From Dethiobacter sp. (lineage in GTDB: Bacteria; Bacillota; Dethiobacteria; Dethiobacterales; Dethiobacteraceae): a stretch of DNA of 51,497 nt. Positions 20,641-36,196 of this stretch are shown here, piece after piece; position 1 is the first letter of the stretch, and the number at the start of each line of letters is the position of its first letter. The stretch is taken from positions 1-51,497 of the forward strand of contig DYEY01000005.1 of NCBI GenBank assembly GCA_020725465.1, written 5' to 3'. A program made the translations under genes and the position numbers. Under the pieces are notes generated by a model. It was not told the DNA's origin and did no database searches. It saw only the letters and a list, made by a program, of their open reading frames with translations.

Positions 20641-21801
20641 TTATACGGCGGAGAACCTGCGCTGCTTCTTTTCCCGGAAAATTGTTTCATAAACGTCCGC
20701 CAGCCTGCCTGCCATGTTCAAAGCCGAGATATGCTTGGCTTCCTGAAGGGCGTTTGCGGACATGGCGGTACGGAGCTTGTCATCCTGCAGCAATTGAAGT
20801 ACCCTGTCAACAAAGATCTCCAAAGAAAGTGGGGTCAGGAACCCGTCCACACCGTCTTTGACCATTTCCGATGCACCAAGCGCCTTAACTGCCACGCAGG
20901 GAAGGCCTGCCGCCTTGGCCTCACCCAAGACAATACCCTGGGTTTCGGTGGTGGAAGCAAATATAAACAGGTCTGCACCGGCGTAACTGTTTACCACATG
21001 CTGGCGTGACAACGGTCCGGTAAAAATAACGTCCTCTGCCAGGCCAAGTTGCCTTGTTTCCTGTTCCAACTGAGATCTCTCCGGCCCATCACCCACGATG
21101 ACCAGCTTGGTTGGGGAAGCAGCCTCGCGCACCCTTAAGTAAGCCTGCAACAAAAAACTTACATTCTTTTCCTTGCCAAGACGCCCTAGGTGCAGCAATA
21201 TTTTCGTTTCTTTATTGATTCCATAGGTTTCCCGGAGCCAGTGGCGGTTAACCTGCTGAAACTCTTCAATTTCTATGCCGGTTGGAACAACTTCAACCCT
21301 GGTCTGAATATTTTTGCCCACAATTTCCTTAACAATTTCGGTGGGTGCAATAACCAGGTCACAGCGGTTGCAGAAATTCCGTGACAGGCTCAGTACCACC
21401 CGGCGCGAGATGCCCTGAGCAAAAGGCAGGTAGTGAACATACTGGTCGTACATGGTATGGTAGGTAAATACCAGCGGCAACCCGTACCGCCTGGCATAGC
21501 GGGCACCCAGCAACCCAAGTGAAAAAGGCGAGTGAACGTGAATCACGTCAAGCCCTATCTTTTTAATGGTAGGCCGCAGGTAAAGGGAGAAAGGCAGGGC
21601 GATGGTAAACTCCGGATAGGTAGGGCTGGGTATGGATATAAAGCGGAAAACACGCGCTTCTTTTTTGTAATTCGGGTAGCTTGGCGCGAAAATATATACT
21701 TCGTGTCCCAGTTCTGTCAGTTTGGCCGAGGTTGTCTCGATGGAACGGACGACACCGCTGGTATATGGCCGGTAGCTGTCGGTGAACATACCGATCTTCA
21801 T
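20641..21801 (-). CDS. Glycosyltransferase family 4 (diacylglycerol glucosyltransferase-like)
   Basis: A 386-residue GT-B glycosyltransferase: N-terminal MKIGMFTDSYRPYTSGVVRSIE typical of 1,2-diacylglycerol 3-glucosyltransferases, acceptor-domain motif HVHSPFSLGLLG, and the C-terminal nucleotide-sugar domain with HLGRLGKEKN, VIVGDGPER and the E-x7-E motif in TETQGIVLGEAKAAGLP. No signal peptide; it is peripheral to the membrane. It probably makes glycolipid from diacylglycerol and a UDP-sugar. It is transcribed away from the 21964-31315 locus and may be independent of it. Substrate specificity is inferred from the N-terminus only. Confidence 0.85.
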   Translation of the reverse strand: MKIGMFTDSYRPYTSGVVRSIETTSAKLTELGHEVYIFAPSYPNYKKEARVFRFISIPSPTYPEFTIALPFSLYLRPTIKKIGLDVIHVHSPFSLGLLGARYARRYGLPLVFTYHTMYDQYVHYLPFAQGISRRVVLSLSRNFCNRCDLVIAPTEIVKEIVGKNIQTRVEVVPTGIEIEEFQQVNRHWLRETYGINKETKILLHLGRLGKEKNVSFLLQAYLRVREAASPTKLVIVGDGPERSQLEQETRQLGLAEDVIFTGPLSRQHVVNSYAGADLFIFASTTETQGIVLGEAKAAGLPCVAVKALGASEMVKDGVDGFLTPLSLEIFVDRVLQLLQDDKLRTAMSANALQEAKHISALNMAGRLADVYETIFREKKQRRFSAV

Positions 21802-21963: not shown

Positions 21964-22626
21964 TTACCTGGCCTCAGGAGGGTAGGGCAGCCACGGGAAT
22001 AAGTCAGGGTACTCTTCACCAGCAAGCACTTCTTCACAGTCAGGAGGTTCGGGACAGAAACCATAGGCAGGTATCATCAGCTGTACGGCAGATGTAAGCT
22101 TTATCAGAACAAATATGCCAATACAACAAATTATAACGGTTTTTATAAAATCGTAGTCCGGTTCCTCATACTTAACTACACCTGACAGGCATTCCAGGAA
22201 AGGAACGGAACACCGCAGGCGCAGGCGCTGTTCTCCTGCGCGGGGAATATGGTAATCATTGGTAACGGTAAAGTCCTTATAAAGATCAATCACCTGATCA
22301 TCCAGAAGAGTGATTTGCAAATTGATCCGATAAGTAAAGGTTACACGTACCCGGCCGGCCTTGGTTGCCATACAGTGAGGGCCGTCCAGAAGCTCCGCGT
22401 TTCTGCAGGTTACCTCACTTACCGGGTTATCGGGGTCAGCTTCGAAAATAAACTCATCTTTGTTTACCCTGACGCTTTTATACTGGTCATACACCATTTC
22501 CGCCACGATGCAGACAATTTCGGTCGGTGGCGGACAACCGTAAACCGGATCACAGGGCCCTGGTATTATACTGTTTGTTAACTGCCTGGCCGTATGTCTG
22601 TTCTTGCCATCGCCGCGCGCACTCAT
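21964..22626 (-). CDS. Conserved membrane-anchored protein, paralogue A
   Basis: A 220-residue protein with a conserved N-terminal block PVYGCPPPTEIVCIVAEMVYD (around residues 29-49), a beta-rich middle (residues 60-150, with RVRVTFTYRINLQITLLDD), a single membrane segment TVIICCIGIFVLIKLTSAVQL (about 163-183) and a cysteine-rich end PAYGFCPEPPDCEEV. The same blocks recur in the neighbour at 22682, so the two are tandem duplicates. The VYD...K and beta pattern is faintly reminiscent of SPOCS (DUF3794) spore-coat domains, but I am not confident. Orientation and neighbours suggest a spore- or envelope-associated role. The function is unknown. Confidence 0.6.
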   Translation of the reverse strand: MSARGDGKNRHTARQLTNSIIPGPCDPVYGCPPPTEIVCIVAEMVYDQYKSVRVNKDEFIFEADPDNPVSEVTCRNAELLDGPHCMATKAGRVRVTFTYRINLQITLLDDQVIDLYKDFTVTNDYHIPRAGEQRLRLRCSVPFLECLSGVVKYEEPDYDFIKTVIICCIGIFVLIKLTSAVQLMIPAYGFCPEPPDCEEVLAGEEYPDLFPWLPYPPEAR

Positions 22627-22681: not shown

Positions 22682-23347
22682 TTACCCGTCCCATGGCGGG
22701 AAGGGAGGCCATTTGAAATGAAATTCAGGGCACTCACCGCCGCCGCTTTGGACCTCCTCGCAATCCGGCGGCTCCGGACAAAATCCGTAGGCTGGCACCA
22801 TTAGCTGAACCTCGGCAAAAAGCCTTATAATAAGCAGTATACCTATACAACAAACAATAATTGTTTTGTTCTGATTACCTGCCTGGGACTTTGCTTTAAC
22901 GACACATTCCAGTCCCTCAATGAAGGGTATGTCACAACTTATTTCCAGGCCTTGTTCACCGGCACGGGGGACATGAAAGCTTTTAACCACCGTGACCTCC
23001 TGGGTGCGGATTATTTCTGTGTTATTCTCAAAACAGACCTTTATTTTAATACCATACTTAAAGGTGACACGAACCCTGCCCGGCCTGCTGTCGTCGCAAA
23101 CCGGGCCATCCAGAAGCTCTACGGATTTGAATTGGACATCCACCACCGGGTTTGACAAATATGAATAAACAACAAACTCATCTTCTTTTATCTGAGTGTT
23201 TTTACACTCATCATAAACCTTTTTGGCAACTATACAGACTATTTCGGTCGGAGGAGGACAGCCGTATACCGGATCATAACGCCCGGGTTTTATGCCGGCA
23301 ACCTGTAGGGCTGGTAATCCATTACTTTTTGAACCACAGCTACCCAT
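22682..23347 (-). CDS. Conserved membrane-anchored protein, paralogue B
   Basis: A 221-residue tandem paralogue of the preceding protein. Shared blocks: PVYGCPPPTEIVCIVAKKVYDECK near the start, ELLDGPVCDDSRPGRVRVTF, HVPRAGEQGLEISCDIPFIEGL, the membrane segment KTIIVCCIGILLIIRLFAEVQL and the ending PAYGFCPEPPDCEEV. The N-terminus (MGSCGSKSNGLPALQVAGIK) differs from A. It starts in the divergent region 23348-23521 and is transcribed into paralogue A after 55 bases. I do not recognise the family reliably. Confidence 0.6.
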   Translation of the reverse strand: MGSCGSKSNGLPALQVAGIKPGRYDPVYGCPPPTEIVCIVAKKVYDECKNTQIKEDEFVVYSYLSNPVVDVQFKSVELLDGPVCDDSRPGRVRVTFKYGIKIKVCFENNTEIIRTQEVTVVKSFHVPRAGEQGLEISCDIPFIEGLECVVKAKSQAGNQNKTIIVCCIGILLIIRLFAEVQLMVPAYGFCPEPPDCEEVQSGGGECPEFHFKWPPFPPWDG

Positions 23348-23521
23348 TTAGCAAATAACCTCCCTTCATTATGTCATGCAATTTCCGCTGTACGCTTTTT
23401 GCTGTCAATATATGCGCCCCCTGCTCATATTGTGAAATATTGCAGCTTACTTTTTTCCAGTCATGTTGAAAGTGTCCCGGTTATATACATATTATATATA
23501 CAGTCAGGGAGGCTGCTTAAA

Positions 23522-24976
23522 ATGAGTATGATTATGATGCTGCCATATTTCTGTCAGATAAACCAACAATCGGTTTTTTTAAGGCTGAATGAAAGGGGGG
23601 AGCTATGCCTGCAAAGAAAAGATCTGCAGTCAGAGTGGCGGCCTGAAGAAGTCATCCATAAGGAGTGCCGCTGCTTTGCCGCGGCACCGGACGCCCGGGG
23701 CAGCCTGCATGTAATCGCCGTTGACGGCAAACGTAAGCTTACCTATTTTCTGGTTGGCGAAGCTGATATAAGGCAACCGCCATTTATCATTAAAAACAGC
23801 CCCCATCATATCATACTTTCATTTTATCCCGGTGGCAGCGGCTGTTTTTTCAGCAGTGACAGTTCAAACAGGCTGATTTGTGCCAGGTATACGCTGGCCA
23901 CCGGTTGGAGTGAAGAAAAACCGGGATTTAACGGAGATATGTCTGTGCCGGTTTGTTTAATAACAGACAAAAGCGGGAGGCTGCACCTTATCACGTACAG
24001 CCTGACGGACGGTAGCCTTCTTTATCGCTGCGGCATGCCGGGGCAAAAATGGACAGAGCCCGTTCAGCTTGATACTGCCCTGGAGCTGCCACTGCCCCCG
24101 GCACTTTGGATTGATGCCAGCCTGAACGTGCATACTGCCTGGTACGTTCCCCGGCAACATTCAATTAATTACCGGCTTAAAAAAGCCGGTGGCTGGCCGC
24201 AAGGGGGATGGCAACCGGAACAATATCTGCAAGCTAATATGCCAGTTCGTCTCCTGTCTTTCCACGAACAACCTGACAGCCTGAAAATATGGTTAATGGG
24301 AGATGGCGGCCAAATACAGATTTTTTCGCGGTACAACGGTGAATGGGACTGTACTGAACATGAAACCGGGTTTCGCCTTCCCGTTCGCTTTGGATTTGTG
24401 GGCGGGGAATGGTACAATTTGGCCGACTCCCTGCCGGCAACCGGCTGGTTTTTCACTGCCGGGCAGGAAGAAGGCAAAGATAAGCGGTATCCAACCAAAG
24501 CGGGGCGGGAGCAAATTAAAGCTGCTGTCGGGACAGACTGGCAGGAAGCGCAGGAACAGCAACTGCTGATACAGATTATGGAGTTAATGGAAGAAAACAG
24601 GAATTTAAAGGCAATTTTAAATGAGAAAGATGAAGCTCTGGCCCGGTACCGCGCTATGCCGGAAGAGGATTTTTACAAAAAGCAGCACGCGGAACAAAAG
24701 GCTGCTATAAAGAAACTGGAAGGAGAATTGAGGCGCCGCGACTCAGAATTAAAATCATACAAAGACCAGGTGGAACGATTACAGAAACAGCTTGCCGCGC
24801 GGGAAACCGAACAGAAAACAGACCGGGCCGAAATCACTGCCTTGCGGCAACAAATTTCACAATACCAGCAGCAGAAAGCCTCGCTTAGCTCCGCCATCCG
24901 CAAACTGGAACAGGAGCTGGCAAGAAAAAAAGGGATCTTTGGATCAATTTCATCTCTGTTTCATAAAAGAGAATGA
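23522..24976 (+). CDS. Beta-rich (propeller-like) protein with long C-terminal coiled coil
   Basis: A 484-residue protein. Residues 1-300 are a series of short beta-strand repeats with W/G/D turns (YTLATGWSEEKPGFN, LYRCGMPGQKWTEP, NYRLKKAGGWPQGGWQ), as in BNR/propeller-type repeats. Residues 340-470 form a continuous coiled coil (ELMEENRNLKAILNEKDEAL through IRKLEQELARKKG). It ends GIFGSISSLFHKRE. No signal peptide is seen. I chose the ATG at 23522 (MSMIMMLPYF), with GGGAGG nine bases upstream. It begins the plus-strand cluster that continues with the 687-residue protein. A scaffold or surface-layer role is a guess. Confidence 0.6.
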   Translation: MSMIMMLPYFCQINQQSVFLRLNERGELCLQRKDLQSEWRPEEVIHKECRCFAAAPDARGSLHVIAVDGKRKLTYFLVGEADIRQPPFIIKNSPHHIILSFYPGGSGCFFSSDSSNRLICARYTLATGWSEEKPGFNGDMSVPVCLITDKSGRLHLITYSLTDGSLLYRCGMPGQKWTEPVQLDTALELPLPPALWIDASLNVHTAWYVPRQHSINYRLKKAGGWPQGGWQPEQYLQANMPVRLLSFHEQPDSLKIWLMGDGGQIQIFSRYNGEWDCTEHETGFRLPVRFGFVGGEWYNLADSLPATGWFFTAGQEEGKDKRYPTKAGREQIKAAVGTDWQEAQEQQLLIQIMELMEENRNLKAILNEKDEALARYRAMPEEDFYKKQHAEQKAAIKKLEGELRRRDSELKSYKDQVERLQKQLAARETEQKTDRAEITALRQQISQYQQQKASLSSAIRKLEQELARKKGIFGSISSLFHKRE

Positions 24977-25053
24977 AACTGTCACGCAAACTGCCTGTTT
25001 AAAATAAATTATAAAAAAAGGGAAATGAATCTGCACAACAGAGGAGGATAGTA

Positions 25054-27117
25054 ATGCCTGAGAACGATAATGCCCGAAAAGAAGTTTTGCCCTATGACAG
25101 CGGTTTATTTGGGGTATACCAGACTATTTTGGGCTGGAAAGGAAACCAGGCCAAAGGAAGAGTGGCCCTGGAACAGGTGGAAAGCGTCCAGAAGATAATA
25201 CAGAGCATGATACACGACGGCATTTTGCAGGCCAACCTGCAAGGTTCGGACCCAAGGGTTCTACGGCCGGATACCGAAATTGTATTCAGGCCTCCCGACT
25301 GGATGAACCCGGAGGTGGCAAAATACATCAGGGAAAATATTGTCACCACTTTTAAAGAAGGTGGCTCCGCTGGTGAACCACAGTCCCCCGAAAAAAAGTT
25401 CAACAGGAGAGTGCACAGTTATTTTGCCACCGGGAGCCTGCCTGACAGGGGTGACGCGGATCTTGATGAGCCAGGCGCGGAAAGCAGCCTGAGCACACCA
25501 GTCAAAGAAGAGCCACAGAAGCCAGGCAAAAATTTGATACCCGATATAGTTACCGAATTGGCCGGCGCAGTGAAAAAAAGAAGGTTTGAAAATAATGCAA
25601 ACGCTGCCATTACAGCCGGTGTACTTAACTGGTTATACGATACCGACCCTTCTGTACTTAATAATGTCTGTTTTGCCAGTAAACAAAAATGGGAAATACA
25701 AAAAAACTTTGTCAACCCGATTGCCGGTTTTGATTATAAAACCCAAATGTCTGTCCTCTCACCCGTCGGCATTCTGTATTTATTCAGACAATTCTTTTTT
25801 GAGCTGGAAACTTTTTTGGGCACCCCGGAAGGCCATGTTTGGGTAAATGCCGGTGGCACCGCTGAGCTTGAAGAAGTGGAACCCGATGACTCCATCGCCC
25901 AAAATTCTTATTCCCTGGCGGAACCTGATGATATTCTGGAGCTGGTGGCAGAAAACAACAGAAATAGCCTGCAATATGCCCTAAACGAGTGCGACTCGGA
26001 AGAATGGGTAACGTGCCAGGCGGATGTTACAGCTGAAATAAGCTACGAACGTAACAGCCGGTTGTCCAGGGAAACAGCCTATAAACAGCTAAGACAAAAT
26101 ATTGAGAAATTGTCCCGGGAGCTACGGCGCAAATCCAGGAAATCATTCAGAGCCGCCACCGGAACTGGCAGTAAACGCTATATGGTTGAAAATACCGGCA
26201 ATAAGCTGGTTAATTACGAGCTCCGCCGCAAAATGAAAAAAGTTGGCATCAAGGTTCAGCCCATAGGCATACAAATGTGCTGGCAGTTATACATTAATGA
26301 CCCGGCCGGCCGTCTTAACATTCCTGACTTGGTGTATATTCCGGCGCCGGAAGAAGCAAAGTCCGATTTACAGGTCAGCTGCTTTTATGAAGAATATAAG
26401 AAGGCAATCAGCGAAGCCAACAAACATGCCGGTTCGTTTCGCAGGCGCTCATCCGCTGAGCTGCGCCAGGAAGAAAAAAGGTTAATTTACCGTTATCTTT
26501 TCCAGCAAATCATGGGGTCAGAACCCAGCCAGTCCAAGTATGTTGCCGACGAAATACTGAGATCTTTGTTTGACATTGATAAAATCTTCTTTTTTGTGGC
26601 GCCTGACTGGTGGCTGCCCCGGGACAGATCCATACAAGCCACTCAGCTAAGTGCCCAGTCCGGTAATGCGCCGGCAGAGGAATCCGCCGGCAGCAACGTG
26701 ATCGGCCCTGGCTGGCTGATACAACAAAACGCGGACAACCACAGGAACGCCCTGATAAATTCCCCCTGGGCCAAGGTGGTTATACCCATCAGGACCGGCA
26801 AAGAAATCGCCGTCCTGAAATGGTTACAGCAGGACCATATCGAAGGAAGCGACGGGCTTGATGACCCTTATCAGGGAGAAGACCCCGAGCTGAAAGGGAA
26901 AACCATCGGCCAGGCGCTTGACCTGCTGGCGGAAAAAGTCATGGATAGTACAGTAAAGATTAACACCGCCGGATATGCCCTGCAGGAAACAGGGTTTGGT
27001 TCCGGACCGGCCTGTACCGATACAGACGACCCCATTGAGCCTGTTGGTCAATGGATAGTGAGTATACCGACCAACCAGGTAGTGGCCGTGGAATATGATA
27101 CCAACCAAAAAGCATGA
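25054..27117 (+). CDS. Large conserved protein of unknown function, 687 residues
   Basis: It has no signal peptide and no catalytic motif I can name. The first 80 residues look like a small alpha/beta domain (FGVYQTILGWKGNQAKGRV). A linker rich in P/E/S (about 110-165) follows, then a helical-beta core with LSPVGILYLFRQFFFELETF and GHVWVNAGGTAELEEV (about 245-285), a charged helix (about 350-385) and NKLVNYELRRKMKKVGIKV then QPIGIQMCWQLYINDP (about 400-435). That last segment recalls a signature in very large uncharacterised proteins of diverse bacteria, usually over 1000 residues, so this may be a short relative. GGAGGATAGTA precedes the ATG; a terminator follows at 27144. Confidence 0.6.
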   Translation: MPENDNARKEVLPYDSGLFGVYQTILGWKGNQAKGRVALEQVESVQKIIQSMIHDGILQANLQGSDPRVLRPDTEIVFRPPDWMNPEVAKYIRENIVTTFKEGGSAGEPQSPEKKFNRRVHSYFATGSLPDRGDADLDEPGAESSLSTPVKEEPQKPGKNLIPDIVTELAGAVKKRRFENNANAAITAGVLNWLYDTDPSVLNNVCFASKQKWEIQKNFVNPIAGFDYKTQMSVLSPVGILYLFRQFFFELETFLGTPEGHVWVNAGGTAELEEVEPDDSIAQNSYSLAEPDDILELVAENNRNSLQYALNECDSEEWVTCQADVTAEISYERNSRLSRETAYKQLRQNIEKLSRELRRKSRKSFRAATGTGSKRYMVENTGNKLVNYELRRKMKKVGIKVQPIGIQMCWQLYINDPAGRLNIPDLVYIPAPEEAKSDLQVSCFYEEYKKAISEANKHAGSFRRRSSAELRQEEKRLIYRYLFQQIMGSEPSQSKYVADEILRSLFDIDKIFFFVAPDWWLPRDRSIQATQLSAQSGNAPAEESAGSNVIGPGWLIQQNADNHRNALINSPWAKVVIPIRTGKEIAVLKWLQQDHIEGSDGLDDPYQGEDPELKGKTIGQALDLLAEKVMDSTVKINTAGYALQETGFGSGPACTDTDDPIEPVGQWIVSIPTNQVVAVEYDTNQKA

Positions 27118-27143
27118 TTTTATCCGGTTTAACCGTCCTGCCC

Positions 27144-27174
27144 GCAGGCTGAAGTTCAGCCTGCTTATTTTTTT
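27144..27174 (+). terminator. Intrinsic terminator after the 687-residue protein gene
   Basis: Plus strand: GCAGGCTGA/TCAGCCTGC 9-bp stem with an AGT loop followed by TTATTTTTTT. It separates the two structural-looking genes from the glycosyltransferase/ATP-grasp operon. Confidence 0.8.
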
Positions 27175-27229
27175 CACTACTTCCCGGCCCATCTCATAAA
27201 CTGAATAAGAGAAAGGAGTGTGCCCAAAA

Positions 27230-28270
27230 GTGAAAGTATTGCATCTGAACCGTTTTTTTTATTCAGGCCAGACCACCCACGTATTCTCTCTGGTTAAAGA
27301 ACAGCAGAAACAGGGGCATCTGGCCCATTTGGCCATTGAAGGATATCCGGCGCTGCGGGCCCTTGAGACTTACAGGGATACCATTGAGAAACTGAATGCA
27401 ACAATGTTGCGGCCCGGAGATGAAAACAATTTAAAACGCCTGATTGAGCAGTACAAATTCAACCTGATTCATGCCCACTCTTCACTGACATTTCCCGTGG
27501 CGCTGAAGCTCAGCAGGGAGTACAAGATACCTTTTGTGGTTACCTGTCACGGGCTTGGCCTCAATAAAGAGGAAAACAGGCCTTATTTAAACGAAGCGGG
27601 TGTGCTTTTCTGTATCTCCCGGCGGGTAGCTAACAGCCTGCATGAGTTTTCAGATAAAATCCGGGTAATTGCCAACGGGGTAGATTTGGATGAGTACAAG
27701 CCGGCAAAAAAATGCGATCCGGTAAAAATAGCTCTGGTGTCAAGGGTTGATGCCTGGAAACAATACGGTTTCGACCAGTTATGCAAAGCGGTGGATCTGT
27801 TGGAGGGCGTTAAGTTCATTGTGGCGTCCAACAAACCACCAATCAGTACCACAGCAAAATATATCGGCTGGACTGATAATATTTCTTCGCTGCTCGCCCA
27901 AACCGATATTGTGGCAGGTACGGGACGGGCCATCATTGAGGGCCTCGCCACCGGCAACGCGGCCATAATACTGGGGAGAACCTACCAGGGAATACTTACC
28001 CCTGACAAAATGGAAAACCAGCAGGACCTGGATTTCAGCGGACTCTCAGGCAGCGTGCCATGCTACAAAACTATTTTTTTTGACCTGGCCAAACTTACCC
28101 AAAACCCCATTTATCTGCAAAAACTCCAGGAACAGGGTCGCAGGCTGGCTGAAAAACATTTTGACAACAAAGTGATCTGCAAACAGATTATTAAGACCTA
28201 TACAGAAGTTCTGAAAACAACACTGACAGCTCCCGACCATAGCCATGCAGGTAAGAGAAAATGCAGGTAG
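27230..28270 (+). CDS. Glycosyltransferase family 4, first of the coupled four-gene operon
   Basis: A 346-residue GT-B enzyme starting MKVLHLNRFFYSGQTTHVFS. The N-domain has IHAHSSLTFPVALKL and VTCHGLGLN; the C-domain has VIANGVDLDEYKP, IALVSRVDAWKQ, and GTGRAIIEGLATGNAAIILG in place of the usual E-x7-E loop, followed by YQGILTP. The later glycosyltransferase of this operon carries the same unusual loop, so they are related. I chose the GTG at 27230, which has AAAGGAG eleven bases upstream. It overlaps the next gene by ten bases. The donor and acceptor are unknown. Confidence 0.8.
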   Translation: MKVLHLNRFFYSGQTTHVFSLVKEQQKQGHLAHLAIEGYPALRALETYRDTIEKLNATMLRPGDENNLKRLIEQYKFNLIHAHSSLTFPVALKLSREYKIPFVVTCHGLGLNKEENRPYLNEAGVLFCISRRVANSLHEFSDKIRVIANGVDLDEYKPAKKCDPVKIALVSRVDAWKQYGFDQLCKAVDLLEGVKFIVASNKPPISTTAKYIGWTDNISSLLAQTDIVAGTGRAIIEGLATGNAAIILGRTYQGILTPDKMENQQDLDFSGLSGSVPCYKTIFFDLAKLTQNPIYLQKLQEQGRRLAEKHFDNKVICKQIIKTYTEVLKTTLTAPDHSHAGKRKCR

Positions 28271-29115
28271 GGATTATATCACAGGCAATCAGGCAGCAGG
28301 ATATGGCTGCCTTTAACAGGGCGGCCAAAAGAAAAAAAATTAACCTGATATTCCTGGCCCCATCCTCACTGGCAATGCTAATTAAAAACAACCGGCTGAC
28401 TTTACTCCACAATAACAGGCCGCTGAACCTGAACGGCCTTATAAACTGGGAGCCATACCCGGTTTTCGACGAGCTGGAAAAGGTATGTAGCAGCCTTGAT
28501 ATTCCTTTTGTCAACCGCACTGAGGCGGTACGCGCCGCCCGCAACAAAATGCTGACCAGCCTGGCGCTTTTTTCCTCCTCACTGCCTCAGCCGGACACCT
28601 GTTATCTTTATTCAGATATAAAAACCGGTCTGGTACAGCTGGGAATTCCCCTGGTTTACAAACCCAAAACCGGCACCCGTGGCCGAGGGGCTCTGCTGCT
28701 CAAATCAGATGCCCAAATCCCCCGCTTCGCTGCCGCCTTATCCGGGAAACACGGGCTTTACCTGCAAAGTTATATCCCAAACCACGGCTTTGATATCCGG
28801 GTGGCAGTGGTGGGAACGAGAGTGCTTGGCGCAATAAAGAAAACCGCAGCCCCGGGCGAATGGAGAACCCATGTAGCCTACGGCGGAACAACCTCCGCTT
28901 ATCCGGTAACCAGGGAACTGGAACAGCTTTCCCTGCAGGCGGTAAAAGCGCTGGGACTGGACTTTGCCGGAATAGACATTATGGTGGACAGCAGTGACGG
29001 CAGCTATAAAATACTGGAAGCCAACGCGGTGCCCGGCCTGGCCATTTTTGAACAAACCACTGGCAAATGTATAGCTGAAGCCATACTGTCACATTTGCAA
29101 ACGTATTGGAGATGA
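28261..29115 (+). CDS. RimK-type ATP-grasp ligase
   Basis: A 284-residue ATP-grasp protein: N-terminal alpha/beta domain (MQVGIISQAIRQQD), substrate region NRTEAVRAARNKM, lysine-bearing LVYKPKTGTRGRGALLL for ATP binding (about residues 136-152), LYLQSYIPNHGFDIRVAVVG, and the metal-binding end GIDIMVDSSDGSYKILEANAVPGL with the E-x-N triad. ATP-grasp enzymes of this type join a carboxylate to an amine or thiol through an acyl-phosphate. Its position between two glycosyltransferases, overlapping both, suggests it adds an amino acid or similar group to the glycan being made. Confidence 0.85.
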   Translation: MQVGIISQAIRQQDMAAFNRAAKRKKINLIFLAPSSLAMLIKNNRLTLLHNNRPLNLNGLINWEPYPVFDELEKVCSSLDIPFVNRTEAVRAARNKMLTSLALFSSSLPQPDTCYLYSDIKTGLVQLGIPLVYKPKTGTRGRGALLLKSDAQIPRFAAALSGKHGLYLQSYIPNHGFDIRVAVVGTRVLGAIKKTAAPGEWRTHVAYGGTTSAYPVTRELEQLSLQAVKALGLDFAGIDIMVDSSDGSYKILEANAVPGLAIFEQTTGKCIAEAILSHLQTYWR

Positions 29116-30134
29116 TTTCCCTGCGCGTGCTTTTCACGTCACCTTTAATCCGGAGCGGTATGTTCACCCACGTCTGCGACCTGGCAGAACAGCTCAGGCA
29201 GCTGGGACTGCACCCTTACCTCGCCTTAATCAACCACACCAAAAACAACATGTCACTGCTGCGCCGGCTACCGGCAATCCCGGTTCATTTTTACAGCACA
29301 TCTGGCGAGCTATCCGACCTGGTCCGCAAACTCCGGATAAACCTTATCCATTCCCACTCACCTCTGACGCTGGACTCCTCTCACCGCATTGCCGAAAAAC
29401 TGTGTGTGCCCCTGGTTATTACTCTGCACGGGATAATCCACTGGCCCACTCTCTTTGCAGAAGCCCTGGCATACGCTTCAGGCATTATTGCCACCGGCCC
29501 GGAAACAGCCTGGTCCGCAGGCAGGGAATATTATAAAAAGACAACCGTTATCTTTAACGGTGTGAATATTCAGCGGTTCAGACCACCACCCTGCGAAACC
29601 ACAAACGGCCCGCTGCGGATACTTTATTTCGGCCGGACCAGGGGCCCGGACGCACAGGGAGTTACCGCCCTCGACAAAGCGGTGGGAATGCTCCGGCAAA
29701 AAGGCAGAAAACTGGAAGCCACCCTGGCAGGCCACGTGGCAGGCGTCTTTCCAGTCAACCTTAAACCATGCGGCTGGGTAGATGACCCGGTACCTCACCT
29801 GCAGCGGAGCCACGTTGCCTTTGGCCGCGGCCGCTCACTCCGGGAGGCCATGGCCTGCGGAAATGTGGGGTTCCTGCTTGGCCAGGGATACGGGGGTATC
29901 TTACACAGAGAGTTATTCACCGCAGGCACTCCCCCTCCCTTCAGCAGCGCCCTGGCCCACGGCGCCCGGGTACCCGAGGCCGATGTTATAAGCTCTGACC
30001 TGGCGCTTCTCTGTGACAACCGCGCATTGTTGCAATCTTACAGAAAAGAGGCTCGTTTGATCGCCGAAGAACACTTTGACTCCTGCCGCATGGCTGAAAA
30101 GACAGTCAATGTGTACCGGCAGGCGCTACGCTAA
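29112..30134 (+). CDS. Glycosyltransferase family 4, second of the coupled operon
   Basis: A 340-residue GT-B enzyme, a relative of the gene at 27230. N-domain: VLFTSPLIRSGMFTHVCDLAE, LIHSHSPLTLDSSHR and ITLHGIIHW. C-domain: VIFNGVNIQRFRPP, ILYFGRTRGPD, CGWVDDPVPHL and GRGRSLREAMACGNVGFLLG with QGYGGIL, the same variant nucleotide-sugar loop as in the first enzyme. The ATG at 29112 overlaps the ATP-grasp stop by ATGA. A TTG six bases earlier is an alternative start. It is followed after 56 bases by the YheC/D-type gene. Confidence 0.78.
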   Translation: MISLRVLFTSPLIRSGMFTHVCDLAEQLRQLGLHPYLALINHTKNNMSLLRRLPAIPVHFYSTSGELSDLVRKLRINLIHSHSPLTLDSSHRIAEKLCVPLVITLHGIIHWPTLFAEALAYASGIIATGPETAWSAGREYYKKTTVIFNGVNIQRFRPPPCETTNGPLRILYFGRTRGPDAQGVTALDKAVGMLRQKGRKLEATLAGHVAGVFPVNLKPCGWVDDPVPHLQRSHVAFGRGRSLREAMACGNVGFLLGQGYGGILHRELFTAGTPPPFSSALAHGARVPEADVISSDLALLCDNRALLQSYRKEARLIAEEHFDSCRMAEKTVNVYRQALR

Positions 30135-30190
30135 CCGCAGCGCATCGGCTTATCTTCGTTAACATTTAATACAACCCGGAGGAGAAAGTT

Positions 30191-31315
30191 ATGATACCGG
30201 CAAAAACCGGCAAAAGACCCCGTGTCGGTGTATTCGTAGCACAGGGTATTATCAGGGATTTAAAGATGCAAAAAGGAAACAGCATTTACAAGATTAAACA
30301 CCTGGTTGACGCCAACCGCATAGCCGGTACCGACCTGTTTTTTTTCTCAATAAACGGTATTGACTTCGATAACTCCAGGATCAATGGTGTATATTTCGAT
30401 TACGCCAAAAAGGTCTGGGCGGAAAAAATTTTCCCCTTCCCCGATGTCTTCTATGACCGGGTTAAAGGAATAATGACCTTTAAAATGTCAGGGGAAGAAG
30501 TCCGGCGCAGGTTCGACAGCCTGGGCATAAAAAAACTGAATTCCCGCCATTTTTTTGACAAATGGGAACTTTACCGGATATTGCAGTCTGATGAAAACCT
30601 GCGCAAACACCTCCCTGCCACACGCCGGTACAACAGCATCGACGATCTGACTGAGATGTTGGGCCGCTTCAGTAAAGTCTACCTGAAAGGCCGCACCGGC
30701 AGCCGCGGCAGACAAATCATGTGTATCACCAAGCTGCCTGACGGCGGCTACGACTACAGATATTACCTGGATTCGGTTACAGTAAAAAAAACATATGACA
30801 CAAGTCATCTGGGCAAAGTGACTGAATCTTTCTTCACAAACAAAAACGTCATTGTCCAGCAGGCCATTGACCTCCTCAGTGTAAACGGCCGCCTCGCTGA
30901 CTTCCGGGGAGAACTGCAAAGAAACGGTAAAGGCGAATTATCCATCACCGCCATCCCCGTCCGTCTCGGTAAAGACAACTCCCCGGTATCAACCAGAGGG
31001 GACAGCTACCCCTTTGAAACCTTTTTTAAAGAGCTGCTGCACTACCCCGACCGGGAAATAACCCTGCTCAGAAGCAGGGTGGAGCAACTCTTGCTTGACA
31101 TCTACAAATACATTGAAAAATGCTACGGCCCCTTCGGCGAGCTGGGCATCGACATCGGCCTCGACAACAACAACCGCTTATGGTTCTTCGAATGCAACGC
31201 CAAATCTGCCAAAGTATCCCTCTGCCACACAGCCGGCGCGGAAACCCTGCTTAAAGCGTTTTTAAACCCGCTTGAGTACGCCAGGTATATAAACAGTTTT
31301 CCGCATAGGGATTAA
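30191..31315 (+). CDS. YheC/YheD-family ATP-grasp protein (endospore coat-associated)
   Basis: A 374-residue ATP-grasp protein with the YheC/D layout: an N-terminal domain RPRVGVFVAQGIIRDLK..., then DVFYDRVKG, KLNSRHFFDKWELYRIL, an ATP-binding lysine segment VYLKGRTGSRGRQIM (about residues 163-177), INVQQAIDL-like VIVQQAIDLLSVNGRLADFRGE and the metal-binding close GELGIDIGLDNNNRLWFFECNAKSAK. Bacillus YheC and YheD are spore-coat-associated. GGAGGAGAAAGTT gives a strong ribosome site. It is the last gene of the glycosyltransferase/ATP-grasp operon, which ends at the hairpin 31314-31342. Confidence 0.87.
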   Translation: MIPAKTGKRPRVGVFVAQGIIRDLKMQKGNSIYKIKHLVDANRIAGTDLFFFSINGIDFDNSRINGVYFDYAKKVWAEKIFPFPDVFYDRVKGIMTFKMSGEEVRRRFDSLGIKKLNSRHFFDKWELYRILQSDENLRKHLPATRRYNSIDDLTEMLGRFSKVYLKGRTGSRGRQIMCITKLPDGGYDYRYYLDSVTVKKTYDTSHLGKVTESFFTNKNVIVQQAIDLLSVNGRLADFRGELQRNGKGELSITAIPVRLGKDNSPVSTRGDSYPFETFFKELLHYPDREITLLRSRVEQLLLDIYKYIEKCYGPFGELGIDIGLDNNNRLWFFECNAKSAKVSLCHTAGAETLLKAFLNPLEYARYINSFPHRD

Positions 31316-31346: not shown

Positions 31347-33074
31347 TCAGTTTTTTGTAAAGCTGTTTGCAGGTGTCACTCCATCCCAGGTCAGGCCGCT
31401 GGCAAAAACATTGGTGACTGTTGTAGTGTAGGTGCCTTTAGGCGCGTTGTTCAAAGTAAAGGTGACTGTGCCGTTGCTCCCTGAGGTGCCGGTACCGGAG
31501 GCAACCAACTTACCATCACGGGTTAACTGGATGGAAACCGACGCTCCAGAGACTTTATTGCCAAAATTGTCTGCAACGGTTAGTGTGACACTGAGGTGCT
31601 GGTTATTATTTTTGCCGCCGTTTGTCGAGTAGTTTACAGAAACGACTCCAACTGTCGTGGCGGTGGAAGTTTTAGTTAACACAAAGTCTACCGGAACAGA
31701 TGATTCATTCGAAACAATAACACTTTCGGTTTTTGACTCGTACCCTGTCTTGGAAGCGGTAACGCTGTATGTGCCCACCGGAAGCGATAAGGTATATCCA
31801 CCATTATTTTCGGTTACCGCTGTAAACGTAGTACCGTCTTTAACTGCTGTTATGTTTGCACCGTCAATTGCAAGCCCTGTACCTGCTTCTTTTACGGTGC
31901 CGGTGATGGTGCCTGTTTGAACCTGATTCGGGGGAGGAGCACCGGTGACAGCAGCCAGAGCATTGACCAGACCAAAACCGAAGTGCTGGTCACGGCCTGT
32001 TACACCTAAATCTGATGCTGTTTCGTTCAAAAGGTTACGAAGTTCAGTGTTAGAAAGTTCGGGATTATTAGCCCAGACCAGCGCCGCCACCCCGGCGACA
32101 TGGGGGGAAGCCATGGAGGTGCCGCTGTAGGTCACATAGCCACCAGGCACCGTGCTGTAAACCGATACTCCCGGCGCCGATAATTCCAGTTGATCACCGG
32201 TGCTGGAAAAGGAAGCCCGCTTATTATCTTTATCTATGGCTGCCACAGCAATCACTGAATTGTACCGGGCAGGGTAATTGATGTTATTGCCTGTACCCCT
32301 GAGATTACCGCTGTTGCCGGCGGCAGCCACCAGAAGCAACCCTGCGTTATAAGCATTATTGCAGGCGTTCTCCAGAGTTGTTGTGCCGCTTGATGCCCCA
32401 AGGCTCATGTTGACAATCTTCATGCCGTTGTTTTGGGCCCACTCAATGCCTGCCACCACACTGCTTGTAGTACCAGAACCGCTGTCACTCAGAACCTTGA
32501 CAGCATAAAGGTGAGCTTGCGGCGCAACGCCAACAACACCAAGATTATTGTCAAGAGCGGCAACAGACCCGGCTACATGGGTGCCATGGCCGTGCCCGTC
32601 ATTATAGTTGCCATTGTTGTCTAAAGTGTTCCAGCCCCCCAAAACTTGGAGATCGGTATGAGGGCCTATACCAGTATCCAGGACCGCCACCTTAATTCCG
32701 GCACCTTCGGTACCGGCTGTCCAGGCTTCAGGAGCCCTGACATGAGGTATCCCCCAAGGTATGGTCTGAGAAACGGCAAACACTTCGTAGTCCGGCTCTA
32801 TATAACTAATCAGGGGATGTCGTGAGAGCGCCTGCACAGCGTTTGCCGGCAGTTCCGCAGCCACAACAGGGACAATGGAAAAAACCCTTGAAACCTGGCC
32901 GCCGAAAGCGGTAATAAGGCCAATTTCAGCCTTTCCCGGCGCCGAGTGGAACCCTATAAGCACCGCCTGCTTTTCCACAGGGCGCGCAAGAGCGGCCGGG
33001 GCTACCATCATAACAAGCAATATCGCTACCAGTAGGAGACACAACCAGTTGCTTCTGATTGTTTTTTGTGGCAT
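31347..33074 (-). CDS. Secreted subtilisin-like serine protease with two C-terminal beta domains
   Basis: A 575-residue subtilase (peptidase S8). It has a signal peptide at about residues 1-30 (cut near ALA-RP), an I9-type propeptide (about 35-100) and a catalytic domain with Asp133 (VLDTGIG), His163 (GHGTHVAG), oxyanion Asn254 (AAGNSG) and Ser320 (SGTSMASPHVAG). A linker GAPPPNQVQ leads to a carboxypeptidase-regulatory/CnaB-like domain (about 388-470, TGTITGTVKEAGTGLAIDGA) and an Ig-like domain (about 475-575, VTLTVADNFGNKVSGASV). AAAAGGAGG precedes the ATG. It is presumably exported and self-matured; the beta domains may bind the envelope. It stands alone between two terminators. Confidence 0.93.
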   Translation of the reverse strand: MPQKTIRSNWLCLLLVAILLVMMVAPAALARPVEKQAVLIGFHSAPGKAEIGLITAFGGQVSRVFSIVPVVAAELPANAVQALSRHPLISYIEPDYEVFAVSQTIPWGIPHVRAPEAWTAGTEGAGIKVAVLDTGIGPHTDLQVLGGWNTLDNNGNYNDGHGHGTHVAGSVAALDNNLGVVGVAPQAHLYAVKVLSDSGSGTTSSVVAGIEWAQNNGMKIVNMSLGASSGTTTLENACNNAYNAGLLLVAAAGNSGNLRGTGNNINYPARYNSVIAVAAIDKDNKRASFSSTGDQLELSAPGVSVYSTVPGGYVTYSGTSMASPHVAGVAALVWANNPELSNTELRNLLNETASDLGVTGRDQHFGFGLVNALAAVTGAPPPNQVQTGTITGTVKEAGTGLAIDGANITAVKDGTTFTAVTENNGGYTLSLPVGTYSVTASKTGYESKTESVIVSNESSVPVDFVLTKTSTATTVGVVSVNYSTNGGKNNNQHLSVTLTVADNFGNKVSGASVSIQLTRDGKLVASGTGTSGSNGTVTFTLNNAPKGTYTTTVTNVFASGLTWDGVTPANSFTKN

Positions 33075-33164: not shown

Positions 33165-33594
33165 AATTTTGTTTTTTGCTGCAGTCGGCACAGCGGCCGA
33201 ACAGTTCAAAAGAGTGGCCAAGCAGGGTAAAACCTTCTTCCGCTGCCCGCTCACTGTACTCCCGGGTAGCGGGACAATAAGAGACGCAGACTGCTTTCTC
33301 GCATTCCACGCAGACCAGGTGATGGTGGTGGTGGCGGATGTCGCCGTTTAGCTCAAACACTGCGCCGGAGCTGAGGGAGATTTGGTGCAGGATGCCGATG
33401 CCTACCAGCAGCCGTAGGTTGCGGTAAATGGTATCCAGGCTGACCCGCGGCTGGATATCCCGCATCATAGCGTGGATTTCCCTGGCTGTGAGGCGCCTGT
33501 TTTCGCCGTCCAGCACCCGGAGGATAGCGCGGCGCTGGGAAGTAACCTTGTACCCCTTATTCTTTAAAGTCTCCAGAGACCCTGATACCGGCAA
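33163..33594 (-). CDS. zur: Fur-family regulator, probably Zur
   Basis: A 143-residue Fur-family protein. The winged helix runs over residues 10-85 (GYKVTSQRRAILRVL, HAMMRDIQPRVSLDTIYRNL). The metal-binding region RHHHHHLVCVECEK and two CxxC pairs (CVEC and CADC), which hold the structural zinc, complete it. Fur-family members sense iron, zinc, manganese or peroxide. The neighbouring znuA, znuC and znuB-like genes point to zinc, so Zur is the best call. Its start overlaps the end of znuB by 38 bases. The operon operator is likely the palindrome at 36218-36241. Confidence 0.85.
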   Translation of the reverse strand: MPVSGSLETLKNKGYKVTSQRRAILRVLDGENRRLTAREIHAMMRDIQPRVSLDTIYRNLRLLVGIGILHQISLSSGAVFELNGDIRHHHHHLVCVECEKAVCVSYCPATREYSERAAEEGFTLLGHSFELFGRCADCSKKQN

Positions 33595-34501
33595 ACCGTT
33601 TCACCCCCGTTCCCGCCAGTTTCCGGAAAACCGCCGCCAGCAAAAACAGCAGTACAGAGGTCATTACAATGCTGCCACCGGGAGCAAGGTTGGCATGGTA
33701 AGAAAAGAAAAGGCCGAGAATTACCGAAGCCAGGGCAAAAGCATAGGAAAACAGGGCAGTGGCCCGGAAGCTTCGCCCTAACTGCAGCGCAGCCGCCACC
33801 GGCACGGTGATAAGGGAAGACACCAAAAGCATACCCACTACGCGCATGGATACGGCAATGGTAACGGCGGTGGAAGCCACAAAAAGGAAGTTTACCAGGT
33901 CTGCCCGCACTCCGGAAGCCCGGGCAGCTTCTTCGTCAAAAGCGATATAAAAGAGCTCTTTCTGGAATAAGGCCACCAGCAGCACCACCGCCGCACCCAC
34001 CGCGGTTATCAGCACCAGGTCCTGCCGGGAAATGGCTATGACACTGCCAAAAAGGTAAGAGAAAAGGTCCGCGTTGAAGGCGCGGCTCAGACTGATTAAT
34101 ATTACTGCCAGGCTTACACCGGCTGATATGATAATTGCTATGGCCAAATCGGTAAACACGCGGTAAGAACGGCGCAGGGTCTCCAGGGCAGCGGCGGCCA
34201 GCAGGGAAAGCGCCAGCGCCGTACCGAGGGGGTATGTCCTGGTGAACATACCAAGGGCAACCCCGGCCAGGGACACATGGGCAAACATCTCTCCGATCAT
34301 GGAAAGCCGGCGCAGTACAAGGTAAATGCCGATGGTGGGGCAGATTACCGCCACCACCAGGCCGGCCAGGTATGCCCTTTGCATAAAGCCGTAAGCCAAA
34401 AATTCAAACAAGCTGTTCACCGACCTGTCAGTGTTTATGCCGGATAAGGCGGACTTTGGTGCCATAGGCCTGCTCCAGTACTTCTCCTGAGCAAAGGCCA
34501 T
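33557..34501 (-). CDS. znuB: Zinc/manganese ABC transporter permease (ZnuB-like)
   Basis: A 314-residue membrane permease of the metal-type ABC-3 family with about eight hydrophobic segments. The signature LRRLSMIGEMFAHVSLAGVALG and GVSLAVILISLSRAFN mark the family, as does FDEEAARASGVRADLVNF. The natural start is probably in the MAFAQEKYW to MQRAYLAG region: the segment before residue 30 is hydrophilic and overlaps znuC, so an internal start near residue 39 (34387) is possible. With ZnuA and ZnuC it imports zinc. It overlaps zur downstream. Confidence 0.9.
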   Translation of the reverse strand: MAFAQEKYWSRPMAPKSALSGINTDRSVNSLFEFLAYGFMQRAYLAGLVVAVICPTIGIYLVLRRLSMIGEMFAHVSLAGVALGMFTRTYPLGTALALSLLAAAALETLRRSYRVFTDLAIAIIISAGVSLAVILISLSRAFNADLFSYLFGSVIAISRQDLVLITAVGAAVVLLVALFQKELFYIAFDEEAARASGVRADLVNFLFVASTAVTIAVSMRVVGMLLVSSLITVPVAAALQLGRSFRATALFSYAFALASVILGLFFSYHANLAPGGSIVMTSVLLFLLAAVFRKLAGTGVKRFAGIRVSGDFKE

Positions 34502-35180
34502 CCGGGCTGCCGTGAAAAAACAGCTTCTGGTTCAGGCAGGCCACTGTCTGGACCTGTTCAGATACAATCCCGATGTCGTGGGTAACCATAAGAAGGGTAA
34601 GCCCGTGTTTCTCCCGCAGCAAAGACAGCAAGTTAAAGAATATTTCTTTGGCATCCTGATCTACACCCACGGTTGGCTCATCCAGAATCAGCAATTCCGG
34701 GCGGCACACCAGGGACCTGGCGATAAAAATCCGCTGCTGCTGTCCGCCGGAAAGTTCCCCCACAGTCCGGCCGGCCAGGTCCAGGGCACCAACGCTGTCC
34801 AGGGCTTGTGCTACCATCTCCTTTTCACGCCGGCCGGGGCGCCTGAGCAGGCCAAGCAGCGGAGAGAGTCCGGCGGTGACCACCTCCTCTGCCGTAGCAG
34901 GGAAGCTGTGCTCAAAGGATGTTGCGTTTTGGCGTACGTAGCCCACACGTGTCCATTCGCGGAAGCGGTCCCGGTCGGTGCCAAAGAGCCTGACTGTACC
35001 GGTTACGGGTTTTAAAAGCCCTACCATTATTTTAAGCAGTGTGCTTTTACCCGAACCGTTGGGGCCCACAATGCCAAGGAAATCCCCCCGGTTGACGGTG
35101 AGGCTTACATCATCCAGTATGGTTTTGGTACCGTAACGAAAGGAGATGTGTTCCAGTTCCAGGACAGGTTCCACAAACAC
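34428..35180 (-). CDS. znuC: Zinc/manganese ABC transporter ATP-binding protein (ZnuC-like)
   Basis: A 250-residue ATPase with Walker A GPNGSGKST (about residue 40), Q-loop YVRQNATSFE, signature ELSGGQQQR, Walker B LLILDEPTVGVD and switch histidine VTHDIG. The DEPTVGVD form is characteristic of metal-uptake ATPases. It follows znuA after five bases and leads into znuB, so the three form one importer operon. The partner permease is encoded downstream. Confidence 0.94.
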   Translation of the reverse strand: MFVEPVLELEHISFRYGTKTILDDVSLTVNRGDFLGIVGPNGSGKSTLLKIMVGLLKPVTGTVRLFGTDRDRFREWTRVGYVRQNATSFEHSFPATAEEVVTAGLSPLLGLLRRPGRREKEMVAQALDSVGALDLAGRTVGELSGGQQQRIFIARSLVCRPELLILDEPTVGVDQDAKEIFFNLLSLLREKHGLTLLMVTHDIGIVSEQVQTVACLNQKLFFHGSPDGLCSGEVLEQAYGTKVRLIRHKH

Positions 35181-35185
35181 CCCTC

Positions 35186-36196
35186 CTATTCGTTTAGGGC
35201 GACCAGCAGCTGCTCCAGGTTTTCATACATGACGGAAAAATAGTCCTTGCCGGCAGCCATCTCTTCTTCACTTAATCCCTCCAGGGGGTTTAAGGTCAGT
35301 ATACCGGCACCGGTTTCAGCGGCAAGCGTGCGAACCAGGCGGGGTGAGGCCAGGGGTTCCTTGAAAACATACCTGATACCGTGGCTGCGGATGAAGTCGA
35401 CTATTTCCTTAAGCTGGGCCGGGGTTGGCTCAATGTGGGGCGACAGCCCGCTGATGCCAAGCTGGACAAGGCCGTAGCGCTTAGCAAGATAGGCAAATGA
35501 CAGGTGAGTTACAACAAACTCACGGCGGGTGGTTTTGGCCAGTGCCGACCTGAAATCTGCGTCCAGGCGTTCTATTTTACTTTTGAAGAGGGCGAAATTT
35601 TCCCGGTAATACTGTTCACCGGAAGGGTCAACACTGATGAGCGCTTCAAGGATGTTTTTACCCTGCTGCAGCGCCAGCAGCGGGTCCAGCCAGACGTGCG
35701 GGTCGGGAAGGTCATGGTCGTGGTGGCAGTCTTCTTCATGGTGGTGATCGCAATCTTTTCCGTGGTCGTGGTCGCAGTCTTCTTCATGGTGGTGGTCGCA
35801 GTCTTCTCCGTGGTCATGGTGATGCCGGTAGCCGGAAAGGGGGACTATCCCTTCTGAAGCATTTACCAACAATGGCTTTTCTGTGCCAATCCCGGCGGTG
35901 ATTTTTTCCACCCAAGGCTCAAGGCCAAGCCCGTTGTACACCAGAATATCAGCAGCATGCAGACCGGCCACCAGCCGGGGACCGGGCTCCCAATCGTGCG
36001 GCTCCACTCCCGGCGGCACCATGTTCACCACTTCAACCCTGTCACCGCCGATTTTTAAGGAAAAGTCATAAAGCGGGTAAAACGAAGCATATACTTTGAT
36101 TTTTTCCAAAGCGGCAGGGGCTGCGTCCGGCTGCCGGCAGCCGGACGCTGAAAACAAAGCAATAATAACAACCAAGGTAAAAAAGAATCTCTTCAT
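35186..36196 (-). CDS. znuA: Zinc ABC transporter substrate-binding lipoprotein (ZnuA-like) with Cys/His repeat loop
   Basis: A 336-residue cluster-A1 metal-binding protein. Residues 1-20 form a lipoprotein signal ending SASGC (lipid-anchored Cys20). Metal-ligand His67 (EPHDWE) and His167 (DPHVWLDP) are present, with THLSFAYLAKRYG as the third ligand region. Between them a low-complexity loop (124-162) is rich in His, Asp and Cys: four 8-residue units with cysteines at 133, 141, 149 and 157. Cluster-A1 loops are usually His-rich without Cys, so this is unusual. It is the first gene of the zinc operon, behind the promoter 36247-36275 and palindrome 36218-36241. Confidence 0.93.
   Translation of the reverse strand: MKRFFFTLVVIIALFSASGCRQPDAAPAALEKIKVYASFYPLYDFSLKIGGDRVEVVNMVPPGVEPHDWEPGPRLVAGLHAADILVYNGLGLEPWVEKITAGIGTEKPLLVNASEGIVPLSGYRHHHDHGEDCDHHHEEDCDHDHGKDCDHHHEEDCHHDHDLPDPHVWLDPLLALQQGKNILEALISVDPSGEQYYRENFALFKSKIERLDADFRSALAKTTRREFVVTHLSFAYLAKRYGLVQLGISGLSPHIEPTPAQLKEIVDFIRSHGIRYVFKEPLASPRLVRTLAAETGAGILTLNPLEGLSEEEMAAGKDYFSVMYENLEQLLVALNE
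35711..35806 (-). repeat. Four 24-bp tandem repeats encoding the ZnuA Cys/His loop
   Basis: Residues 131-162 of the ZnuA-like protein are four imperfect 8-residue units: EDCDHHHE, EDCDHDHG, KDCDHHHE and EDCHHDHD. The DNA shows the matching 24-bp tandem repetition. The length could vary between strains by slippage. Confidence 0.85.

Follow-up and report, generated by a model that had tools for sequence, protein, structure and literature searches.

Organization of the Locus

The window, meaning the whole 51,497-nt stretch of Dethiobacter sp. DNA under analysis, carries an eight-gene locus in which PAR-A and PAR-B are read divergently from ORF1, ORF2, GTA-RimK-GTB and a YheC/D gene (Table 1). 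A sequence-only reading of the same DNA had described two related family 4 glycosyltransferases (GTs) alternating with two different ATP-grasp ligases, joined by overlapping gene ends and lying behind two large uncharacterised proteins and two membrane-anchored paralogues, and had proposed that the locus builds a modified glycan on the spore surface. The ORF coordinates of all eight genes bear out this order as a real one, and the overlapping joints are present at GTA/RimK (10 nt) and RimK/GTB (4 nt). Judged by sequence comparison, the gene set is more than a chance assembly, as orthologous sets recur in rearranged form in other genomes of the family. The complete set was found in the host genome only, the other genomes holding a layered, rearranged module.

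The locus is flanked by a gene for a glycolipid-synthase-like GT on one side and by S8 protease and zinc-uptake genes on the other (window positions 20641-21801, 31347-33074 and 33557-36196). In the relatives L121, L123 and L129, the same flanks hold a shorter locus or a lone GTA, an arrangement that resembles an insertion hot spot. Elsewhere in the window, a DUF3231 protein (15998-16966, minus strand) has a weak Coat_F match and is another possible spore protein.

Table 1. Genes and predicted regulatory features of the locus (window coordinates).
Feature	Position	Strand	Description	Basis
PAR-A	21964..22626	-	11 Cys, all-beta (predicted), PAR-B paralogue	family profile A3, Cys count, hydropathy
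PAR-B	22682..23347	-	13 Cys, all-beta (predicted), divergent from ORF1	AlphaFold model
Sigma-K-like promoter, PAR-B (predicted)	23406..23434	-	CACAATATGAGCAGGGGGCGCATATATTG	motif match
Candidate sigma-E-like promoter, ORF1	23460..23491	+	GTCATGTT-N14-TATATACATA	post hoc; 8/13 f1 relatives
ORF1	23522..24976	+	484 aa from ATG; predicted propeller ~1-305, coiled coil ~326-480	AlphaFold, Foldseek, VIA
ORF2	25054..27117	+	687-aa orphan at usual CAP-domain protein position	
Intrinsic terminator after ORF2	27144..27164	+	9-pair stem, then TTATTTTTTT	
Sigma-K-like promoter, GTA operon (predicted)	27175..27203	+	CACTACTTCCCGGCCCATCTCATAAACTG	20/20 GTA orthologues vs 23/305 control ORFs
GTA	27230..28270	+	GTG start; GT4-type glycosyltransferase	PF13439
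RimK-type ATP-grasp ligase	28261..29115	+	10-nt overlap with GTA	TIGR00768 above cut-off
GTB	29112..30134	+	second GT4-type glycosyltransferase; ATGA 4-nt overlap with RimK	PF13439
YheC/D-type ATP-grasp protein	30191..31315	+	56-nt gap after GTB	PF14398

The PAR Family and Its Association With Sporulation

SpoVAA was rejected as a sporulation marker, because the host genome lacks it and B. subtilis was the only control in which it was found; since it is uninformative across these controls, SpoIVA was taken instead. The host genome carries spoIVA, as do 17 of the 20 sampled genomes of its family (f1). The compared genomes are related, so the P values given here are optimistic, and several of the genomes are fragmented MAGs.

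PAR proteins were detected with a seven-member profile in 111 of the 398 phylum genomes searched. spoIVA is present in 109 of these 111 carriers versus 336 of the 398 genomes overall (Fisher P 1.4e-7, with kinship ignored), and the two carriers that lack it, G121 and G321, are 80% and 90% complete, respectively. Restriction to endospore formers, which had been suggested as a check on the spore reading, thus turned out favorably for the PAR family. In two other families, a PAR gene adjoins spoIVA (G005:C32:14571-16646 and G091:C1:1538387-1540547).

The PAR proteins are rich in cysteine, with 12-17 residues counted in most relatives. The AlphaFold model of PAR-B consists of very long beta strands (residues 35-186) with a core pLDDT above 90. 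It gave no Foldseek match at E <0.001 and no VIA match at Z >=5, and a known fold may still underlie it. For PAR-A and PAR-B, comparison with Pfam, NCBIfam and PHROG gave at most coiled-coil noise. When seven PARs were compared with Pfam at an E value of 10, there was no match, including to SPOCS/DUF3794, DUF4183 (F-ENA) and DUF3992 (S-ENA), and hhalign returned a probability of 19% against two presumed SPOCS-like proteins that themselves have no Pfam match. An assignment of PAR as SPOCS, F-ENA or S-ENA is unsupported by Pfam, by hhalign (for SPOCS) or by the fold searches.

The earlier description of the paralogues as membrane-anchored did not hold up. The hydrophobic stretch falls within a long predicted beta strand, relatives carry a lysine there and have lower hydropathy, and the sequence shows no evident signal peptide. 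A transmembrane assignment found no support, and from the model the PAR paralogues are probably not anchored in a membrane.

ORF1, ORF2 and the CAP-Domain Protein

ORF1 is predicted by AlphaFold (pLDDT 84) to comprise a propeller and a coiled coil of 150 residues. The best PDB matches of the propeller are the Photorhabdus PLL/PHL lectins (Foldseek E 1.7e-10), and superposition on a PLL lectin gives a VIA Z of 24.7 (rmsd 3.2 A over 300 residues), as opposed to about 18 for propellers in general and 20-22 for those of glycoside hydrolases and lyases. By this test the predicted model has the seven-bladed PLL-type propeller fold. While ORF1 is thus predicted to share its propeller with these lectins, it is only about 10-14% identical to them and carries the extra coiled coil, and its sugar binding is putative, a lectin-like fold in a model being no proof of this activity. 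ORF1 and ORF2 are both uncharacterised, as had been claimed, since Pfam, NCBIfam and PHROG return at most coiled-coil noise for them. An origin of the two proteins in a phage or tailocin was considered and rejected, as PHROGs, phages and viral contigs gave coiled-coil noise or nothing.

Once coiled-coil and low-scoring matches are removed, ORF1 occurs in about 23 of the 398 phylum genomes searched. In 18 of the 23 carriers it lies less than 2 kb from a PAR gene, and where 20 kb was mapped the pair is usually divergent. The conserved core of the locus is this PAR/ORF1 pair together with a CAP-domain protein, to which GTA is added in the class of the window. Behind ORF1, most relatives encode a secreted CAP-domain protein (PF00188), and in f1 and a second, distant family (f2) GTA comes next. 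Examples of the CAP-domain gene after ORF1 are found at L042:6382-6933, L089:7360-7950, L090:8555-9142 and L120:2611-3192, among others, and many of these relatives feature an RWPEPAWFA-like motif behind the signal peptide; the gene is absent from this position in the window. The window is therefore a variant, with two PARs, ORF2 at the CAP position and RimK-GTB-YheC/D behind GTA.

ORF2 is found in 2 of the 98 class genomes, and the copy in the relative G310 is on another contig. A 1006-aa relative (33% identity, E 9e-32) is encoded on a linear plasmid of the actinomycete Embleya sp. NBC_00896 (L109:11032-14052), and weak relatives in Nonomuraea and Aulosira were reached through the Embleya protein. 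No known domain was found in the Embleya and Aulosira proteins. ORF2 appears to belong to an unnamed, patchy family of environmental bacteria. None of Embleya, Nonomuraea and Aulosira is known to form endospores, and because ORF2 has relatives in such bacteria it cannot be used as evidence for spore function; its reading as a spore protein has become doubtful. There is about an even chance that ORF2 entered the locus as a mobile gene with no functional tie to it: its scattered distribution speaks for insertion, whereas it fills the place of the CAP gene between ORF1 and the terminator, where it would be transcribed with ORF1.

Glycosyltransferases and ATP-Grasp Ligases

GTA and GTB both match the GT4 N-terminal domain PF13439 (78 and 50 bits, respectively, with a Pfam cut-off of 28.5) and are about 27% identical to each other (alignment A4), in agreement with their description as two related family 4 GTs. 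The C-terminal GT domain PF00534 has no match in either protein at E 0.01, although the A4 profile does align to the C-terminal parts of the PglA and BshA structures. The first Glu of the E-x7-E motif is missing in the GTA alignment. GTA orthologues are found in f1, with more distant ones in f2, and GTA is also present in class relatives without RimK. Within the GT/ATP-grasp operon, no gene for nucleotide-sugar synthesis, a flippase or a polymerase was found.

The two ATP-grasp ligases are of different types, as had been claimed. RimK scores 149.3 bits against TIGR00768 (NCBIfam cut-off 143.4) and aligns with the alpha-L-glutamate ligase 7qyr (E 3e-27). The fold, the family score and the ATP-grasp metal-binding residues (D239, E253 and N255, invariant in five members and aligned with 7qyr) are common to RimK and the alpha-L-glutamate ligase family. 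It differs from that family in its linkage to GTs, in forming a separate five-genome clade and in the motif GEFRSN, which every clade member carries as GEWR[TS]H (GEWRTH here, GEWRSH in one of the five). Because of this change, the amino-acid specificity may differ. The RimK-type fold alone fixes neither the amino acid nor the acceptor.

The RimK clade was found in 5 of the 98 class genomes at more than 480 bits, the next match scoring 56 bits, and every member sits within a locus of the present kind or next to one. In the host (G000), G312 and G307, RimK occurs with PAR and/or ORF1 plus GTA and GTB. In G310 it occurs with PAR, ORF1 and GTA, and GTB is found on that contig too, at a distance of about 10 kb. 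In G302 its neighbors are GTB and a YheC/D, on a contig of 4.9 kb. Since the gene order is shuffled among these genomes, the linkage has been maintained through rearrangement.

YheC/D matches PF14398 over its full length (positions 2-255 of 255, 244 bits versus a Pfam cut-off of 26.8), and no relative of known structure was found. The GTB-YheC/D pair is present in the window and in G310, with looser pairing in G302, G300 and G311. Nine YheC/D-type matches occur in the host genome; another contig (G000:C70:1-30000; L044, L045) holds five of these, four of which are adjacent to each other. A matching YheC/D array in G310 (L039) directly adjoins GTA, PAR, ORF1 and RimK. Contig C73 of G310 holds, in a span of about 24 kb, a collagen-like protein, several YheCD, GTA, two PAR, ORF1, RimK and a GTB-YheCD pair.

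Sigma-K-Like Promoters

In the published sigma-K consensus, a -35 element of 5 nt and a -10 element of 10 nt are separated by 14-16 nt (PMC517825). Patterns for sigma-K, -E and -G were run on the upstream regions of PAR and ORF1, with ORFs of the same loci as controls. The strict sigma-K pattern is found in 6 of 23 PAR upstream regions versus 9 of 271 control ORFs (P 4e-4), and a relaxed pattern, loosened after the PAR sequences had been viewed, in 15 of 23 versus 26 of 271 (P 3e-9). In loci fetched later, four of four PAR genes have a sigma-K-like motif. A sigma-A promoter was found upstream of PAR in none of 23 cases.

Upstream of GTA, the motif CAC-N14-17-CATAnnnT[AG] is present in nine of nine orthologues, three of which are from the distant f2, versus 23 of 305 control ORFs (P 4e-10). 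With the pattern fixed first, it was also found in 11 of 11 further f1 GTA genes, bringing the total to 20/20; P is about 5e-14 with one orthologue per genus. Nearly all sites are 44-54 nt before the start codon, and the L127 site is farther away because its start is called late. In the 51-kb window the motif has four matches, two of which lie exactly before GTA and PAR-B, while the other two (41513, plus strand; 14168, minus strand) are background. The elements and spacing before GTA and PAR-B fit the published consensus, and on this consensus evidence the two predicted promoters are termed sigma-K-like. The search for sporulation-sigma promoters, another check suggested by the sequence-only reading, therefore came out in its favor for GTA and PAR.

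The GTA promoter begins eleven bases 3' of the strong terminator that closes the ORF1-ORF2 unit. The GTA-RimK-GTB operon that starts there probably continues into YheC/D, for which no sigma-K site of its own was found. Most GTB copies outside the operon are without the motif, which is present in 3 of 8. No sigma-K site was found upstream of ORF1, where the predefined two-part sigma-E pattern was also not significant. A motif found post hoc, GTCATGTT-N14-ATATA, occurs in 8 of 13 f1 relatives and in one of six relatives fetched later, and may be a sigma-E promoter of ORF1. In many GTA promoters (L120-L126, L131), the -35 region TTTCACCCCT forms an inverted repeat with the ribosome-binding region AGGGGTGAAA, at a distance of about 35 nt.

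A Proposed Role in the Outer Spore Envelope

The host is a spore former, the PAR/ORF1 divergent pair is conserved, GTA and PAR are under predicted sigma-K-like control, PAR, ORF1, GTA and RimK are linked across genomes, and the pairing of GTB with YheC/D is repeated. The link to sporulation made by the earlier reading is thus retained, on the strength of spoIVA, the restriction of PAR and the sigma-K-like promoters, while PAR membrane anchoring and ORF2 as a spore protein have been lost from it. More likely than not, the locus acts in the mother cell during sporulation and makes an amino-acid-modified glycan or glycoprotein for the outer spore envelope. The functions of the operon enzymes are all predicted, and we infer the chemistry, acceptor and localisation of the product. 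Points that count against this reading are the lack of nucleotide-sugar, flippase and polymerase genes in the operon, the altered RimK motif, the occurrence of ORF2 relatives outside spore formers, and the missing sigma-K sites before YheC/D and most GTB copies elsewhere.

Late in sporulation, the mother cell would use GTA and GTB to assemble a short glycan. An amino acid, glutamate or a relative of it, would be put on the glycan or on its protein carrier by the RimK-type ligase, and the YheC/D ligase would add another residue or act at the spore surface. The PAR proteins would form or join a disulfide-rich protein layer, and ORF1 would span from this layer (through its coiled coil) to the glycan (through its lectin-like propeller). 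Cysteine-rich spore proteins as a class have been proposed to form a disulfide-linked layer (PMC7333573), and YheD of B. subtilis forms a shell round the spore (PMC7911427). More tentatively, and as a possibility held with less than even confidence, PAR and ORF1 may represent an undescribed sigma-K-controlled spore-surface module, a cysteine-rich layer with a lectin-like tether, found in much of the clostridial phylum, to which a family-specific new glycan is added whose sugars are amino-acylated by the paired RimK and YheC/D.

In a less likely alternative, GTA and GTB would be O-glycosyltransferases for PAR or collagen-like proteins of the spore surface, on which the ATP-grasp enzymes would extend peptide tails, with no free polymer. 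RimK itself ligates glutamate to a protein, which counts for this alternative, and a collagen-like gene is nearby in G310. There is also precedent in C. difficile, where SgtA glycosylates BclA3 (PMC7157674), likewise with a GT near surface-protein genes and with glycosylation at the spore surface. However, SgtA is a GT-A enzyme with TPR while GTA and GTB are GT4, and no ATP-grasp ligase is described in the SgtA-BclA3 system (PMC7157674). In addition, no collagen-like gene was seen in the window, and GTA recurs in class relatives without RimK.

It is unlikely that the product of the operon is instead a small soluble molecule of sugar and amino acid (a compatible solute, thiol or cofactor) that serves the mother cell during sporulation or the spore. 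Bacillithiol and mycothiol follow the same logic of a GT4 plus a ligase, the GT profile matches not only lipid- and glycan-building GTs such as PimA but also the small-molecule enzymes BshA and MshA, and the RimK relatives MptN, LysX and CofF of cofactor and amino-acid pathways also match (NCBIfam). Against this, there are two GTs and as many ligases, encoded next to Cys-rich and lectin-like proteins, and in G310 these genes have a collagen-like gene and a YheCD array as neighbors. An ordinary vegetative cell-envelope or capsule locus with chance links to the spore, in keeping with the housekeeping neighbors (zinc uptake, glycolipid synthase) and the general nature of the GT families, is very improbable given the sigma-K-like motif before every GTA orthologue and the near confinement of PAR to spoIVA-bearing genomes.

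Relation to Known Systems

YheC/D ATP-grasp proteins are common spore proteins. Here, YheC/D is tied to GTs, RimK and a predicted late-sporulation promoter, a setting that points to a spore glycan being amino-acylated and opens this idea to testing. A literature search, with subscription titles mostly outside its scope, revealed no described system joining RimK or YheC/D with GTs in spores and no lectin-like propeller in clostridial spores. PAR and ORF1, the latter predicted to be lectin-shaped, are widespread families of spore formers without a Pfam or NCBIfam name. The csxA-bclA-glycosyltransferase exosporium cluster of Clostridium sporogenes (PMC7333573) likewise combines Cys-rich and GT genes, and the collagen-like gene of G310 adds to the likeness. 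It differs from the present locus in that GT4 enzymes, ATP-grasp ligases and a lectin-like propeller are found here, and the likeness of PAR to CsxA is one of Cys-richness only. YheC and YheD of Bacillus subtilis are mother-cell sporulation genes of the same PF14398 family (PMC517825; PMC7911427). While the B. subtilis genes are controlled by sigma-E and SpoIIID, YheC/D in the window trails a sigma-K-like operon with GTs and RimK. If a spore glycan is indeed amino-acylated by the paired RimK and YheC/D ligases, this would be the first biochemical role for the long-orphan YheC/D family.
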